This document shows positions 57,242 to 63,958 of a stretch of DNA of 64,000 nt, piece by piece. Each line of letters starts with the position of its first letter. Positions within the stretch are counted from its first letter, which is position 1. The notes beneath the pieces are model-generated. The model was given only the letters and a program-made list of their open reading frames with translations, had not been told where the DNA came from and did no database searches. A program made the position numbers and the translations under genes. This DNA is from Natronococcus sp. A-GB7 (lineage in GTDB: Archaea > Halobacteriota > Halobacteria > Halobacteriales > Natrialbaceae). Location: the NCBI RefSeq assembly GCF_029688865.1, contig NZ_JARUKV010000016.1:1-64000 (forward strand), written 5' to 3'.

Positions 57242-58138
57242 ATGGGTGCTAAAAGGAAAACGTTCGTCTACTCGGAGCTCGAGAACGGTGTCGGACCGTT
57301 CATTACTGATCGTGACGCCCTCGAGGCCGTTCGGGATCGGATCACCGACGACCTCCGCCGGACCGTCGCCGACGCCGGCGCGGACGGCGTCGTCGTCGCG
57401 ATGAGCGGCGGAATCGACTCAACGGTGACCGCCGCGCTGGCCGTCGAAGCGCTGGGCAGCGATCGGGTACTCGGGCTCGGCTTGCCCTGTCACAAGAGCG
57501 ACCGCACGCAGGTCAACGAGGCCCGGACGATCGCCGACGGGCTCGGAATGGAGTTCCGCGAGATCCAACTCCAGCCGCTTCTGGGTGCCTTCGAGGAGAC
57601 GGTCGCGGCCGAGTTCGAATCGGAATCAGCCGATCGGCCCAACGAGCGAAATCACGCGATCGGAAACGTTATCGCGCGGCTGCGGATGTGCTGTGCGTAC
57701 TACGCCGCAAACCGCGACTCGCGGCTCGTCGTCGGAACGGCGAACCGCTCGGAGCTCCTGGTTGGCTACTTCACGAAGTACGGCGACGGTGCCGCAGACA
57801 CGTATCCGATCGGGGACCTCTATAAAACCGAAGTCTGGGCGCTCGCCAAGCGACTCGGCGTGCCGCGTCGCATCATCAGCAAGACCCCGACCGCCGGCTT
57901 CTGGGCAACTCAGACCGACGCCGGCGAACTCGGTGCCCCGTACGACGTCATCGATCCCCTGCTCTACCGCCTCGTCGACGAGGGCCAGACCCTCGAGGAG
58001 GCGGTCGCCGCCCTCGAGATCGACCCTGATCTCGCTCGCGAGATCGTCTCGCTGTTCGCCGGGACGGCGCACAAGCGGACGACGCCGCACACGCCGGGAA
58101 TCGCGAACCGCGACGGGTTCGCGTCGGTCGATCCCTGA
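57242..58138 (+). CDS. nadE: NAD+ synthetase
   Basis: 298 residues. The PP-loop SGGIDST lies near residue 55 (VVVAMSGGIDSTVTAALAVE), followed by CHKSDRTQVNEARTIADGL, GTANRSELLVGYFTKYGDGA and PIGDLYKTEVWALAKRLGVP, the conserved NadE blocks. It amidates nicotinate adenine dinucleotide in the last step of NAD synthesis. There is no N-terminal glutaminase domain, so ammonia is the likely nitrogen donor. Downstream genes are on the other strand and its stop is four bases from the next. Confidence 0.95.
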   Translation: MGAKRKTFVYSELENGVGPFITDRDALEAVRDRITDDLRRTVADAGADGVVVAMSGGIDSTVTAALAVEALGSDRVLGLGLPCHKSDRTQVNEARTIADGLGMEFREIQLQPLLGAFEETVAAEFESESADRPNERNHAIGNVIARLRMCCAYYAANRDSRLVVGTANRSELLVGYFTKYGDGAADTYPIGDLYKTEVWALAKRLGVPRRIISKTPTAGFWATQTDAGELGAPYDVIDPLLYRLVDEGQTLEEAVAALEIDPDLAREIVSLFAGTAHKRTTPHTPGIANRDGFASVDP

Positions 58139-58141
58139 CCG

Positions 58142-58543
58142 CTACTCGAGGTAGACGTCCGGGTTCCGCCACCAGAACAGTCCCCACGAGAGCATGAAGC
58201 CGACGGCCATCGCGACGATGTCTTGGACGATCTGGGGGAGCCCGAGGTCGACGATCGCGACCAGGACGATCGACGAGCCCAGTGCCGCGCCCGCAACGAC
58301 GAACGCTACGTCGCCCGCGATCTGTTCCTGCGATCGGTCCCAGTAGTGCTGGCGACTCTCGTCGTACCAGACGCCGACGTAGATCAACACCGGCGACATG
58401 AGCGTGATGACCGTGATCGACTGGTACGCTTCCGGCAGTCCGACCGGAAACAACACGAGCTGGTTGAGTATCTGTGCCAGAATCGACATGACGAACAGTC
58501 CGGCCAGCAGCCACCCCCACCGCGGCAATCGCTCCTTGTCCAT
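58142..58543 (-). CDS. Hypothetical membrane protein, four helices
   Basis: 133 residues. Four helices (WGWLLAGLFVMSILAQILNQ, SITVITLMSPVLIYVGVWYD, DVAFVVAGAALGSSIVLVAI, IVQDIVAMAVGFMLSWGLFW) with a charged loop ESRQHYWDRSQEQI in the middle. Not recognised. It is oriented like, and 45 bases after, the winged-helix gene at 58589, so these two may be one unit. Confidence 0.7.
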   Translation of the reverse strand: MDKERLPRWGWLLAGLFVMSILAQILNQLVLFPVGLPEAYQSITVITLMSPVLIYVGVWYDESRQHYWDRSQEQIAGDVAFVVAGAALGSSIVLVAIVDLGLPQIVQDIVAMAVGFMLSWGLFWWRNPDVYLE

Positions 58544-58588: not shown

Positions 58589-58882
58589 CTACTCCGCGCA
58601 GCAGGCGTCTTTCTTCGGGGATTCCTCGACGCCGCTGCCGTCGGCTGCGACGGGTTCCTCGAGGCGGTAGAGGCTCTGTCTGGCGTCCGCGAAGTAGATA
58701 TCCTCGTCGACGATGCCGATATCTTCGAGCCGCTCGAGGGCATAACGGACGGTTCGAGCCGAGAGCATCGACTCCTCGACGATCTGTTTCTGCGTGAGCG
58801 GACCGTCGTACTCGAGAACCTTGAAAACGAGTTTCGCGCTCGGTGGCAGATCTTCGAGATCCTCGCCGTCAGTCGCGGTCAT
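58589..58882 (-). CDS. Winged-helix transcriptional regulator, MarR/TrmB-like
   Basis: 97 residues. Residues about 10-75 form a winged helix (PPSAKLVFKVLEYDGPLTQK and SMLSARTVRYALERLEDIGI). The end SPKKDACCAE has paired cysteines close to the C-terminus, possibly redox- or metal-sensing. I recognise this as a common haloarchaeal HTH family. A TATA box at 58908-58914 gives a leaderless transcript from 58882. Confidence 0.85.
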   Translation of the reverse strand: MTATDGEDLEDLPPSAKLVFKVLEYDGPLTQKQIVEESMLSARTVRYALERLEDIGIVDEDIYFADARQSLYRLEEPVAADGSGVEESPKKDACCAE

Positions 58883-59097: not shown

Positions 59098-60237
59098 TCA
59101 GATCCGTTCCCAGGCGTCGTCGTCGTCGGGATCAGGAAGTTCGCCGACCGATCCCTTGGCGGGAATCGTGGATCCGTCGCTCGTCTCCGCAGTCTCGTTG
59201 CCGAGTTCGAGTTCCGGCCAGGCGGTTCTCTCCCATTTTCCGCGCTCGGAGTGATAGTAGACGACGTCGTCGTTGACGACCGCGAACAGTCCGCGCTGTC
59301 GATCGTGGACGACGCGTGCGTTCGTGTCGATGGCGACGTCGACGACGTCCTCGAGGGTGTCGAGTTCGACGTGGTAGTCGCCGACCCACATCGGGATCGA
59401 TCCCTCCGAGATCCACTCCGCGTAGCGGCGTTCGTGGACGGACCGGCGAGCCGACTCGGCGTCGATCGGACGTCGCGTGTGAACGACTCCGGCTCCGCCA
59501 AGCGCGAGCAGTCCGATCGCCGCCAGTCCGGCGACGACCGCCCCGTTCGGCGACTCTCCGACCTCGACCTGTGCCGTCTCGCTGTGGTCGGTCGACTCCG
59601 CCAGCTCCGTCTCCTCGAACCAGTAGGCGTCCTCGGTCAGCTCGAGCATACTCGACAGCGTCTGCTCGTCGGCGTGGGTTCCCGTATCGTAGACGGCGAC
59701 GACCTCGAGCACCGTTCGAACGGTTCCGACGCTTTCGAACTCCGCCTCGACGTCGGCTCGTTCGGCCACGAGTGAGTCGATATCGATCGTCGTTCCCGAC
59801 CGTGCGACGTCGTCCTCGATAGTTGCGGCGGTCCGCTCCTCCCGTACCGTCTCCTCCCAGAAGACCGCGTCCTCGTGTTCGGCCTCGTGGCGGACGCGAA
59901 CCTCGTGGACGACGTCGGCGTCGTCGCTCGGAACCGACGTCTCCACAGTGAGGGTCAGCTCCGGCGCCTCGGGCAGCGTGTAGACCGGATTCTCCTCGAG
60001 TTCGGTACCGACTTCCCAGGCACCCTCCTCGACGACCGTCGCGCTCGTCGTCGCTTCGGTCGCGACGCTCTCCTGGTCGATCTCCTCGGTCGTCGTCGTC
60101 GTTCCCGGCGTCGCTGCAACCCAGCCGGCGCCAACGAGTGCGAGCACTCCCACGAGCGCGAGAGCGATCGCGAGGGATCGACCGCGATCCGCGATCACCA
60201 GATCCAGACGCGGGTTATCGATCACGCTTTCCTCCAC
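59098..60237 (-). CDS. DUF5305-like membrane protein
   Basis: 379 residues. An N-terminal anchor (SLAIALALVGVLALVGAGWV) leads into an extracellular part of about 180 residues (EEIDQESVATEATTSATVVE, EENPVYTLPEAPELTLTVET), a second helix (GAVVAGLAAIGLLALGGAGV) and a cytoplasmic end (WISEGSIPMWVGDYHVELDT). The layout and sequence match haloarchaeal DUF5305 proteins as I remember them. They commonly sit next to signal peptidase I, as here; a link to handling secreted substrates is inference. It is the second gene of the 61527 transcript. Confidence 0.82.
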   Translation of the reverse strand: MEESVIDNPRLDLVIADRGRSLAIALALVGVLALVGAGWVAATPGTTTTTEEIDQESVATEATTSATVVEEGAWEVGTELEENPVYTLPEAPELTLTVETSVPSDDADVVHEVRVRHEAEHEDAVFWEETVREERTAATIEDDVARSGTTIDIDSLVAERADVEAEFESVGTVRTVLEVVAVYDTGTHADEQTLSSMLELTEDAYWFEETELAESTDHSETAQVEVGESPNGAVVAGLAAIGLLALGGAGVVHTRRPIDAESARRSVHERRYAEWISEGSIPMWVGDYHVELDTLEDVVDVAIDTNARVVHDRQRGLFAVVNDDVVYYHSERGKWERTAWPELELGNETAETSDGSTIPAKGSVGELPDPDDDDAWERI

Positions 60238-60369
60238 CCGTCAGCCTCCCCCGGTTTTCGTCACGTGTTCGAACCCGAGTATCCCTCGAGCGAACAGGTC
60301 GTTCGGGAGAACTGTTCATACACACGGGAAGAATCCCGATCGTGATAACGGTAGTGGCCCCCCGGATGC

Positions 60370-61527
60370 CTACCGCCACCGACGCAGTCGACGCCGAAGA
60401 CGCGTCGAGAGCGAGACGTGGTCGCCGGGACTGCGGATCCGGAAGTCCCCCCGCCCGAACAGGAGTGTGACGACGCCGACGACGACGCCGACGAGGACGA
60501 GATCGACGGCGGCGATCGCGGCGAGGGGATGGATCCCGTGTAACCAGACGAGCAACGAAGGGGGAAGAACGGTCAGATAGCGGTACTCTCCGACGTGACT
60601 GGTGTACTCGCCGGTCTCCTGGGGAGCTGACACCGACAGCGTCGTCGCGTCCGCCGAGCGGGGACCGAGCGTCTGCGATCCGGGCTCGGCCTCGAGTCCC
60701 CCGCCGGCTTCGTGGACGACGACCACCGGGGCGTAGCCCGCGTTCTCGACCTCTCGAGTCAGTTCGCTCGTCTCGCCCGGAGCCAGTATCTGGGGATCGT
60801 CGGTCGGCGACTCCGTGACCGCGACCTCGTACTCGTAGGTGCCGGCGGGAACCACCATCGCCGCGGTCGCCAGTGCGACGATCACGAACACTACGAGCGC
60901 GACGGTCCCCCAGAACGCGTAGACGTTCTCCCGGGAGGTCGATCGCACCGTCTCGCGTCGCGCAATGCCCGCGTAATCGAGGAGGATTCCCACACCGAAC
61001 AGCGCCACGCCGAGTCCGACCAACACCGAACCCACGCCGTGGCTGTCCCCCGTCGAGACCCCGATGATCGACGCGGCCGTCCCGTACGCCGACTCGAGTG
61101 CACCCTGAACGCCCATTATGCCAGTTCCGAGGTGGGGGACCGTCACGACTTCGCCGCCCGGCTGCCAGGCGACGGCGACGATCTGCTCGTCGCTCACCGG
61201 CGGCTCCTCGCCGCCCTGATCGGTGAAAGGGTTCGCGTCGCCCGCCGTCACGTACCCCTCCGGCGTCTCCTCGACGATCCGGTGGGTGGTCAGTTCGCCG
61301 CCGTGGAGCGCTTCGGCGTCGAAGACGACGACGTCGCCCTCGCTGGGCGAGCCGGCGACGGCGTCCGGTACGGCGACGAACCCGTCGCCCGCGTCCATCG
61401 TCGGCTCCATGCTCCCCGTCGCGACGTAGCCCAGCAGGATCGGCTGGCCGAGCACCTGCCCGACGACGAGCAGGGCGACGGCGAGAACGACGAGTCCGGC
61501 CGCGCCTCGAGCGAGGAGCGTTCGCAT
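60370..61527 (-). CDS. Signal peptidase I, archaeal (Ser-His-Asp) type
   Basis: 385 residues. After an N-terminal anchor, the catalytic Ser39 is in YVATGSMEPTMDAGDGF, His82 in GGELTTHRIVEETPEGYV replaces the bacterial lysine, and Asp97/Asp103 lie in YVTAGDANPFTDQGGEE. Beyond about residue 155 the protein has two more helices and an extracellular domain (EVAVTESPTDDPQILAPGET), an extension larger than in ordinary SPase. The neighbouring secreted proteins are likely substrates, which makes a SipW-like dedicated peptidase a reasonable reading. The start is supported by TATA-like sequence upstream. Confidence 0.92.
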   Translation of the reverse strand: MRTLLARGAAGLVVLAVALLVVGQVLGQPILLGYVATGSMEPTMDAGDGFVAVPDAVAGSPSEGDVVVFDAEALHGGELTTHRIVEETPEGYVTAGDANPFTDQGGEEPPVSDEQIVAVAWQPGGEVVTVPHLGTGIMGVQGALESAYGTAASIIGVSTGDSHGVGSVLVGLGVALFGVGILLDYAGIARRETVRSTSRENVYAFWGTVALVVFVIVALATAAMVVPAGTYEYEVAVTESPTDDPQILAPGETSELTREVENAGYAPVVVVHEAGGGLEAEPGSQTLGPRSADATTLSVSAPQETGEYTSHVGEYRYLTVLPPSLLVWLHGIHPLAAIAAVDLVLVGVVVGVVTLLFGRGDFRIRSPGDHVSLSTRLRRRLRRWR

Positions 61528-61552
61528 TTAGTATCTGTCTCCTGTAGCGAGT

Positions 61553-61566
61553 GTAAAGATATTAAA
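61553..61566 (-). promoter_or_regulatory. AT-rich promoter box upstream of signal peptidase
   Basis: On the minus strand TTTAATATCTTTAC; either half (TTTAAT or CTTTAC) could be the TATA box for ATG 61527, at about 36 or 28 bases. Confidence 0.45.
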
Positions 61567-61759
61567 CCTGTCTTGTCGATCGGGAGCGTGTCGAAAGAAG
61601 TTGCAACATCGTCAACCCCAGATACGGTTGGTCAAGCCGGGAGCGGGCGGCTCGTCGGCCGGATGAGTCACGATCATAACGGTTCTGCTCCGGAATCACG
61701 CCCCTTCGGAGAGGCGAACGGGTCGAGAGCGGTTTCGGTGGGAAGAACTATCCAATGAA
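61567..61759. other. Intergenic region, no feature seen
   Basis: About 190 bases between the signal peptidase start and the stop of the secreted-protein gene on the same strand. It contains no supported ORF or clear hairpin. Confidence 0.4.
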
Positions 61760-62251
61760 CTAGTCTCCGGAGTCGTCTTCCGCTTCAGCGACAAACGTCA
61801 CCTCGCTGTCTTCCGTCGGCGCATCCCCGTCGATGTCAAAGATCACGTCCAGATCGAGATCATCATCAGCGTCGATACTGACCGTCGCTTCCCCGTCAGA
61901 CAGATCCGTCTCATCGTAGTTGATACGCATATCGTCAGGAACGTCTTCGATACTCAGCTCGACATCGTTCTCACCGTTGTTCTCAACCGTAATCGCCTCA
62001 TCGAACCTCGTCTTGGCGTCCTCGTTCAGGTCCTGAACATCGATTTCGATCTGTCCGTCGTTGCCGTCTTCTCCCTCGAGCGTGTCGCTGTTGACCTCGA
62101 AGGCCAGTAACGCGTCGGCGTCACCCGTCGTCCCGAAGTCGACCGTTCGATCCGCCTCGACGGTACTGAACGCGCCGGTACCAAGTGCTGCGCCGCCGCC
62201 GGCGACGATCGTTCCGAGTCCGATGAGCGTGTTTCGTCTATTGAGTTTCAT
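61760..62251 (-). CDS. Secreted protein with TasA/DUF1102-like N-terminus
   Basis: 163 residues (MKLNRRNTLIGLGTIVAGGG). The N-terminal hydrophobic segment after twin arginines looks like a signal sequence, followed by GAFSTVEADRTVDFGTTGDA, which matches the mature start of the secreted protein at 63083. The rest is a very acidic beta-rich domain (DVELSIEDVPDDMRINYDET) typical of haloarchaeal DUF1102-like proteins. Similar small proteins in bacteria (TasA, camelysin) form fibres and depend on the peptidase SipW. Structure or assembly is inferred only. Confidence 0.75.
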   Translation of the reverse strand: MKLNRRNTLIGLGTIVAGGGAALGTGAFSTVEADRTVDFGTTGDADALLAFEVNSDTLEGEDGNDGQIEIDVQDLNEDAKTRFDEAITVENNGENDVELSIEDVPDDMRINYDETDLSDGEATVSIDADDDLDLDVIFDIDGDAPTEDSEVTFVAEAEDDSGD

Positions 62252-62514
62252 AATAGGATTCGCTTGGTCCGGCCGGCGACTGATATCTCGAGCGAAGTCG
62301 CGGGCGGTTCCTGTCTCGATCTATGCCACCCACGCACTTTGTATTTGTGATCCTGAAAGTCTTCTTAGTAAGTTATTAGGGATTCAGGCCGCCCCAGAAT
62401 CGACTCTCATCCGGCGTCGTACCGTTTCAGTTCCGGAACGAACGGTGAAACGAACCCGTTGGCCAGTAGGCTTATCTATCGGTAGTCGGTACTGTGCGCT
62501 GTACTGACGTTCTA
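62252..62514 (+). promoter_or_regulatory. Divergent promoter region of the secreted-protein cluster
   Basis: 263 bases between the start of the 62251 gene (leftward) and of the 62515 gene (rightward). A likely box for the right gene is CTTATCT (62471-62477). The middle holds AT-rich sequence (AGTCTTCTTAGTAAGTTATT, 62349-62368). No ORF was supported. A shared regulator site is possible. Confidence 0.45.
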
Positions 62515-63081
62515 ATGGCGACGAACACGGCCGCCGATGAGACGCAGACGGATCTCGACGAGCCGACGCCGGACCGCGGCGAGATCTTCGGTTTGCTCTC
62601 GAACCAGCGACGCCGGTACGCGATCCACTACTGCAAGCGCGAGGACGGCCCGGTCGAACTCGGGGACCTCGCCGAACACGTCGCCGCCTGGGAGCTCGAG
62701 AAGGAGATTCCGGAGCTGACCGCCGCGGAGCGAAAGCGCGTCTACACCTCCCTCCAGCAGAGCCACCTGCCGACCCTCGAGCGGGCCGGGATGGTCGTCT
62801 TCGACGACCGAACGATCGAACTCACCGAGGAGGCGGCGGAGCTCGACGTCTATCTCGATATCGTCCCGAGCGACAGCGTCCCGTGGGGGGTCTACTACCT
62901 TGGGCTCTCCGCGCTCGCGTCGATCGTGATGGCCGGGTTGTGGCTCGGGGTCGTTCCGACCGAGACGATTCCGGCGCTCGGCTGGACGACACTCGTGGTC
63001 GGGCTGTTCGCGGCGTCGTCGATCGTCCACGTCGTTCAGAACCGACGGATGCGGCTGGGGGAGATGGAGCACCCCCCATAG
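62515..63081 (+). CDS. Winged-helix protein with two C-terminal membrane helices (DUF7344-like)
   Basis: 188 residues from ATG 62515. Residues about 20-110 read as a winged helix of the haloarchaeal type (FGLLSNQRRRYAIHYCKRED and ELTAAERKRVYTSLQQSHLP). Two helices follow (VYYLGLSALASIVMAGLWLG and LGWTTLVVGLFAASSIVHVV), so the DNA-binding part would sit on the cytoplasmic side of the membrane. It ends one base before the next gene, so both are cotranscribed; it may regulate the secreted-protein cluster, by inference. Confidence 0.85.
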   Translation: MATNTAADETQTDLDEPTPDRGEIFGLLSNQRRRYAIHYCKREDGPVELGDLAEHVAAWELEKEIPELTAAERKRVYTSLQQSHLPTLERAGMVVFDDRTIELTEEAAELDVYLDIVPSDSVPWGVYYLGLSALASIVMAGLWLGVVPTETIPALGWTTLVVGLFAASSIVHVVQNRRMRLGEMEHPP

Positions 63082-63082
63082 T

Positions 63083-63958
63083 ATGCGAACGACAAAATCT
63101 CTGGCCGTACTCTGTGTCGTTCTCGGCGTCGTCTTGCTCGCCGTACCGACCTTCGGATTCGTCACGATCTCCGCCGATCGGGGCGTCTCTATCGGGACTG
63201 CCGACGACGAGGAGGCGTACCTCGGCCTCGAGGCGGTCGATACCGTCGTCACCGATCAAAACGACGCCGAAACGGTGCTCGTGATGACGAACAACGCCGA
63301 CGAGGAGCTGTCGATCGACGCCGACGTCGTGATCCACGAACCGGGCCTCGAGGAGGCGAGCGACTTCGGTGGCACGCTCCCACCGGGCGGGGAGACGACG
63401 TACGCGGTGACCTGCGAACCCGGAACTGGTGCCGGAGAAACGAAACTCGAGGTCGCGGTCGACTCCGGTACCGGGGACGGGATCTCGATCGAAGAGTTTG
63501 AGCGGACGGTCACGATCGAGCGAGACTGTCCCGGTCGATCCGATCCGGGTCCGCCCGGCGGAGCCGATCCTGGAAACGGGTTCGACTCGGTCACCGTCGA
63601 CGACGTCTCCGGATCGGTGAACCCGGGCGAGGAGCGCCAGCAGTTCCGGTTCAGACTCGCGGAGAACCGGAAACCCAACGAGGAGATCGAAATTGACCTG
63701 AGTAATCCTGAAGGGGGTGGTGTCGACTACACCGAGACGTTCCGAGACGACGACCTCGAGGTCCTCGAAGGCGCTGGTGCCGTCCAGGAGAGCGACGGGA
63801 CGCTCGTCTACCAGGTCGCCCCCCAGGACGGTCACGACGACGAGATAGTTCTCGAGCTTGGCGGGTACGCGACCGACGGCGACGGTGGTCCCTACGAGGT
63901 GACGTTCACGCGAACCGACACGGACGAGACGGCGGTAGAGTCGTTCGAGATCGAGTAG
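63083..63958 (+). CDS. Secreted protein with DUF1102-like N-terminus
   Basis: 291 residues from ATG 63083. Signal-like start MRTTKSLAVLCVVLGVVLLA followed by FVTISADRGVSIGTADDEEA, which aligns with the mature start of the 61760 protein (ADR at the same place, then GT and a D-rich turn). The domain (about 30-155) is beta-rich; a Gly/Pro linker (DPGPPGGADPGNG) leads to a second beta domain (about 175-291, ERQQFRFRLAENRKPNEEIE). It lies one base after the winged-helix gene. Extracellular; function unknown. Confidence 0.8.
   Translation: MRTTKSLAVLCVVLGVVLLAVPTFGFVTISADRGVSIGTADDEEAYLGLEAVDTVVTDQNDAETVLVMTNNADEELSIDADVVIHEPGLEEASDFGGTLPPGGETTYAVTCEPGTGAGETKLEVAVDSGTGDGISIEEFERTVTIERDCPGRSDPGPPGGADPGNGFDSVTVDDVSGSVNPGEERQQFRFRLAENRKPNEEIEIDLSNPEGGGVDYTETFRDDDLEVLEGAGAVQESDGTLVYQVAPQDGHDDEIVLELGGYATDGDGGPYEVTFTRTDTDETAVESFEIE

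Follow-up and report, generated by a model that had tools for sequence, protein, structure and literature searches.

A probable, divergent Tafi-type pilus locus with its own signal peptidase and DUF5305 protein in Natronococcus sp. A-GB7

Positions 59098–63958 of a 64,000-nucleotide stretch of Natronococcus sp. A-GB7 (contig NZ_JARUKV010000016.1, positions 1 to 64,000, here called the window) hold a signal peptidase gene, a DUF5305 gene, a winged-helix gene and two genes for secreted proteins, and the question is what these five genes build together. A reading made from the sequence only had placed them within 5 kb, had compared them with the bacterial sipW-tasA units, and had proposed that they may make an extracellular fibre or matrix. 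All five genes are present, with open reading frames that agree exactly with the limits given in that reading, and Pfam and NCBIfam recognize three of the products as DUF5305, archaeal signal peptidase I and DUF7344, while both secreted proteins match models of the Tat-fimbriae (Tafi). For the haloarchaeal tafi, thin surface fibres that were described recently, the source is Galeva et al. 2025 (iScience 28:111793), as cited in PMC12687288. We conclude, with a probability of roughly 0.87, that the five genes constitute a Tafi-type pilus locus, a divergent and complete-looking member of this type.

Read along the minus strand, the locus begins with the TafC-like gene and the winged-helix gene, both pointing against the direction of reading, and after a divergent promoter region it continues with the genes for the pilin, the signal peptidase and DUF5305, which point along it. 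The successive gaps from the TafC-like gene to the DUF5305 gene are 1, 242, 232 and 132 bp.

The Tat-signal pilin and its solved relative

The pilin is encoded at 61760–62251 on the minus strand. It starts with MKLNRRNTLIG followed by a hydrophobic stretch, a signal of the Tat type, and among its relatives the twin arginine is conserved at R5 in 67 of 67 and at R6 in 64 of 67, with Ala27-Phe28 at the end of the signal invariant (67/67). The mature domain, counted from Ala27, is an acidic beta sandwich of 137 aa. Used alone in phmmer, the window pilin matches PDB 9P0A chain C with an E-value of 1.8e-21, and a profile of the 67 pilins has one strong match among the PDB chains, the same chain, at E 6e-46. 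The entry 9P0A is the structure of the Tafi pilus of Natrinema sp. J7-2; the structure covers 188 of its 215 residues, the alignment extends to residue 215, and this range would fit a mature chain that begins with Phe28 or just ahead of it. The NCBIfam model TafE also recognizes the window pilin.

The gene order leads to the same pilus. One protein encoded in a locus of Natrinema gari (L119) shares 100% identity with the 9P0A pilin, and the families of that locus follow one another as in the window, namely SecTaf, winged helix, pilin, signal peptidase and DUF5305, with additional genes of 902 and 394 aa. A TafA protein above the curated cut-off is found beside the same peptidase and DUF5305 in Salinadaptatus (L116) and in Natrinema salsiterrestre (L093). 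The fibre proposed in the sequence-only reading is supported by a pilin homologous to the solved Tafi pilin and by a syntenic locus that encodes the identical protein.

An AlphaFold2 model of the window pilin (pLDDT 79.5) is a beta sandwich of the kind found in fibre subunits, and the best solved match is the TasA-related archaeal bundling pilin AbpA of the hyperthermophilic archaeon Pyrobaculum calidifontis (7UEG, Z 8.8 over 113 residues, 3.0 Å, 11% identity), tied with 9P0A at Z 8.5 and with FimA and the Sulfolobus thread scoring just under these two. TasA itself is not among the fold matches listed for the model. Other, unrelated Ig-like domains reach Z 7 to 8.7, and since several of them score about as high, the fold alone would not decide. 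The label "DUF1102-like" that had been given to the two secreted proteins holds at the level of the family, as 11 of the 67 pilin relatives match Pfam DUF1102 at E≤0.1, but neither of the window proteins does.

The dedicated peptidase, DUF5305 and their companions

The peptidase gene, at 60370–61527 on the minus strand, encodes a dedicated archaeal-type (S26B) signal peptidase I with extra transmembrane helices. Against TIGR02228, with a cut-off of 51.85 bits, it scores 50.0 bits in the protein scan and 51.9 bits in the genome search with its neighbours, and S39, H82 and D97, the Ser-His-Asp catalytic residues of S26B, are invariant across 22 peptidase relatives. Four hydrophobic segments are present, and between further hydrophobic segments there is a second extracytoplasmic domain at about residues 233–325, so that the enlarged extracellular part noticed earlier corresponds to some 90 residues beyond the catalytic domain. 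The housekeeping signal peptidase of the same genome is without this second domain. It is encoded at a separate locus (L018, contig C23), which excludes that the two are the same gene, and the module models find nothing at that locus except this peptidase itself, with 37 bits.

The DUF5305 membrane protein (59098–60237, minus strand) matches PF17231 with E 7e-44, as had been supposed, and contains two hydrophobic segments; in most loci its gene adjoins that of the long peptidase. In the AlphaFold2 model (pLDDT 88.5) a transmembrane helix at residues 9–42 is followed by an Ig-like beta ectodomain (46–227), a second transmembrane helix (232–254) and a small cytosolic domain (260–340). The top matches in the fold search are transglutaminase and similar domains with Z up to 8.9, which we read as a common Ig-like arrangement, and no specific solved relative was found in that search.

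The winged helix of the DUF7344 family (PF24035, E 3e-28) is annotated at 62494–63081 on the plus strand, but ATG 62515, which is kept in the relatives, is a better and probable start. By hydropathy its hydrophobic C-terminal part fits two membrane passes, in agreement with the membrane anchor previously proposed, and it is a candidate local regulator. The sequence-only reading had supposed that it could report the state of the envelope to DNA; what the relatives show is its conserved place, in 57 of 59 complete loci. The divergent intergenic region in front of it (62252–62493) contains conserved blocks, with a mean column identity of 79% in an alignment of five species. Only 1 bp after the regulator gene follows the TafC-like gene (63083–63958, plus strand), and the two therefore probably form one operon. 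The TafC-like protein has a hydrophobic, Sec-like signal without a twin arginine, and it matches NCBIfam TafC with E 2e-11 and the pilin profile with E 1e-6, while a sequence search gave no solved relative. Among 50 homologues the pilin-like N-domain (residues 1–150) is conserved with an occupancy of 0.88–0.99, and the C-terminal part is variable or missing, the total length ranging from 145 to 549 aa.

The sequence-only reading had named the co-occurrence of these families in Halobacteria as a check of its idea, and the distribution agrees with it. Among 116 evenly sampled haloarchaeal genomes, 92 have DUF5305 and 87 the long signal peptidase; both occur in 87, the peptidase alone in none, DUF5305 alone in five, and neither in 24 (Fisher p 3e-20). 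The five with DUF5305 but no long peptidase at E 1e-40 are G010, G056, G073, G076 and G095, and two of the DUF5305 matches are fragments. Of 42 DUF5305 loci (two from this genome and 40 from others, in stretches of 12–19 kb), 40 carry the peptidase on the same stretch, 37 have a Taf-type protein there and 27 the winged helix, with varying gene order and orientation. A second set, made up of 59 complete loci of 17 kb taken from named genomes and biased to near relatives because it was anchored on the peptidase, has Taf-type proteins in all 59, the winged helix in 57, DUF5305 in 57, and all four families together in 55. The winged helix is weaker evidence than the other families, since DUF7344 is common, with 35 matches in this genome.

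A second module with the five families was found with the peptidase and DUF5305 models on contig C1 of the same genome (G000), at about 349.4–354.4 kb (L017, 6378–11368), and by profile search the Taf-type secreted proteins of the genome occur at these two module loci only. On C1 the TafC-like protein and the winged helix are on one strand and the peptidase, DUF5305 and the pilin on the other. The identities between the two modules are 43% for the peptidase, 34% for DUF5305, 42% for the winged helix and 30% for the pilin; the C1 TafC-like protein is without the C-terminal domain, and the C1 pilin has a signal of another type (MLPMERRKF...).

The two types recur elsewhere. Distances between the peptidases and between the DUF5305 proteins are correlated with r 0.94, the best of 1000 permutations giving 0.154, and the module types of the two proteins agree in 77 of 78 loci. 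In eight genomes compared that have two modules, the present one included, the class of the pilin signal differs between the loci in all eight, one locus having signals of the "NRRN" type (in one of the genomes with a lysine substituted, NRKN), against mainly "RRKF"-type signals at the other. As the signal classes are split between two loci in each genome, the pairing does not follow from species history alone. Mixed signal classes are found in a minority of loci, and for the pair in Halovivax the same peptidase type was called, with 45% identity. As far as checked, it is new that signal peptidase and DUF5305 should, judged from their sequences, form two co-evolving types of module whose pilin signals match the type; the placing of the accessory genes in a co-evolving module may in part already be published.

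The Tafi assignment and its alternatives

Several observations speak against a Tafi pilus. The window pilin, with 163 aa, is shorter than that of 9P0A (215 aa), the Natrinema locus has genes of 902 and 394 aa that are missing here, and common ancestry of the genomes accounts for part of the co-evolution signal. The NCBIfam equivalog cut-offs of 190 bits for TafA, 410 for TafC and 155 for TafE are not reached, the scores being 40.7–44.6 for TafA, 43.4 for the TafC-like protein with TafC and 110.8 for the pilin with TafE, and no TafA above the cut-off is present in the genome. The protein identical to the 9P0A pilin obtains 77 of 155 bits with TafE and 53 of 190 with TafA, and because a protein identical to the solved pilin fails both models, the cut-offs do not delimit the Tafi pili. 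A short pilin, the absence of a TafA equivalog at the cut-off and the fact that no filament is on record for this organism would suit secreted proteins that remain single at the surface, e.g. as receptors or as accessories of the S-layer, and that owe their maturation to a spare signal peptidase. The syntenic Natrinema gari locus makes this very improbable, since one of its proteins is identical to a filament subunit of known structure. That a housekeeping signal peptidase happens to lie beside unrelated secreted proteins could appeal to the abundance of DUF7344 winged helices, but is refuted by the second module, the four families in nearly all of the peptidase-anchored loci, the near-perfect co-occurrence at genome level and the separate housekeeping peptidase.

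The parallel with sipW-tasA, drawn in the sequence-only reading, holds in part. In Bacillus subtilis the dedicated SipW cleaves TasA, which carries Phe at P2' (PMC10269814), and the window likewise has a dedicated archaeal-type signal peptidase beside a fibre protein and an aromatic residue at the mature start in the Ala-Phe that follows the signal peptide; in the fold search AbpA is the top match among several tied ones. The locus might then be a true archaeal member of that family, with SipW and a TasA/camelysin matrix protein instead of a separate pilus type, all the more as the SipW model NF046067 touches the window peptidase (E 2e-7) and DUF5305 and signal peptidase in other archaea of the phylum adjoin proteins that exceed the cut-offs for SipW signal and camelysin. 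However, the peptidase obtains 30.6 bits against a cut-off of 190 with NF046067, the SipW-signal model TIGR04088 matches neither secreted protein of the window, the pilin signal is of the Tat type, the module has in addition DUF5305 and a membrane winged helix, and by sequence the Tafi pilin, not TasA, is the nearest homologue of solved structure. The likeness is therefore retained and membership is very improbable.

A distant link to sipW-tasA is suggested by archaea outside the halophiles. Non-halophilic archaea of this phylum with genomes of 1.4–2.2 Mb also have DUF5305, and six of their loci (L184–L189) have the same families as the window, with a winged helix (truncated in L187, where the locus ends), at least two Taf-type pilins, the long peptidase and DUF5305, mostly in the window order. 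They differ in the pilin signals, which are Sec-like without twin arginine instead of Tat, and typically end with GADF..Y.ADR. A Pfam scan of one such pilin gave a clear match to DUF1102 (E 1e-43). A search on plasmids for DUF5305 of the non-halophile type gave haloarchaeal matches alone. In L177, L178 and L181, DUF5305 and a signal peptidase stand beside proteins above the SipW-signal (TIGR04088) and camelysin (PF12389) cut-offs, and by their sequences these loci support a bridge to the bacterial sipW-tasA, the analogy probably being real if distant. Both the non-halophile modules with Sec-like signals and DUF5305 with signal peptidase beside SipW-type camelysin proteins are new as far as checked. 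It is possible, and we propose it tentatively, that DUF5305 and its partner peptidase are an ancient archaeal processing-and-assembly platform common to three branches of fibres, i.e. SipW-type camelysin/TasA clusters, Sec-exported DUF1102 pili and Tat-exported haloarchaeal Tafi pili, with each peptidase fitting the signal that its own pilins carry. The direction would presumably be Sec first and Tat later, haloarchaea rerouting an originally Sec-dependent pilus via Tat. Such intermediate clusters connect the sipW-tasA biofilm fibres of bacteria with the pili of haloarchaea.

For the Tafi-type pilus of the window, we infer that the pilin is exported via the Tat route. The dedicated peptidase might then cleave around the conserved Gly26-Ala27-Phe28 and free the mature N-terminal strand, and by analogy with AbpA and TasA the pilins could polymerise by donating this strand to the next subunit. 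The TafC-like protein, a pilin domain with a variable C-domain, might be a minor tip, adhesin or anchor subunit, the tip or adhesin role being suggested by a conserved N-domain combined with a C-terminal part that varies or is missing. DUF5305, with its Ig-like ectodomain between two membrane helices, may serve as the membrane platform or base that works together with the peptidase, and the membrane winged helix may regulate the divergent promoter. Two families of unknown function would by this gain a setting, DUF1102 with the Tafi-type pilins, and DUF5305, with the long peptidase, as their companions, which accompany the pilins in nearly every haloarchaeal genome holding that peptidase. The need for a dedicated, non-housekeeping peptidase and for DUF5305 in Tafi assembly becomes testable, and two module types in one cell are a natural test of the specificity between peptidase and pilin.

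Neighbouring genes and further observations

The module family models have no match across the remaining 56 kb of the window. Past 63958, where the sequence-only reading had suggested looking for further members, a 111-aa membrane protein is followed by an ABCE1/RLI-like gene, neither of which seems to be part of the module. Next to DUF5305, and outside the module count, are a small winged-helix gene (58589–58882), a membrane protein gene (58142–58543) and, beyond the latter, a nadE-like gene (57242–58138). Three points had escaped the first reading: that the fibre was already known (Tafi/Tat-fimbriae, 2025), the Tat signal on one of the secreted proteins, and the second copy of the module.

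On plasmid pNMAG01 of Natrialba magadii the protein that follows the winged-helix position (L169:1880-2698, WP_004214215.1) is annotated as "polymer-forming cytoskeletal protein". The L119 counterpart combines a secretion signal with bactofilin-like repeats in the variable C-terminus, and because of this signal such "polymer-forming cytoskeletal" proteins are probably extracellular. In the same Natrinema Tafi locus the start of the 902-aa protein (L119:2740-5448) resembles haloarchaeal type IV pilins (RGASSIIGILLLFTLVILGAAVVF), as judged by eye only. A contig labelled "Mollicutes bacterium" (PULR01000059.1, L154) carries a typical haloarchaeal Tafi locus and probably comes from a mislabelled genome bin.

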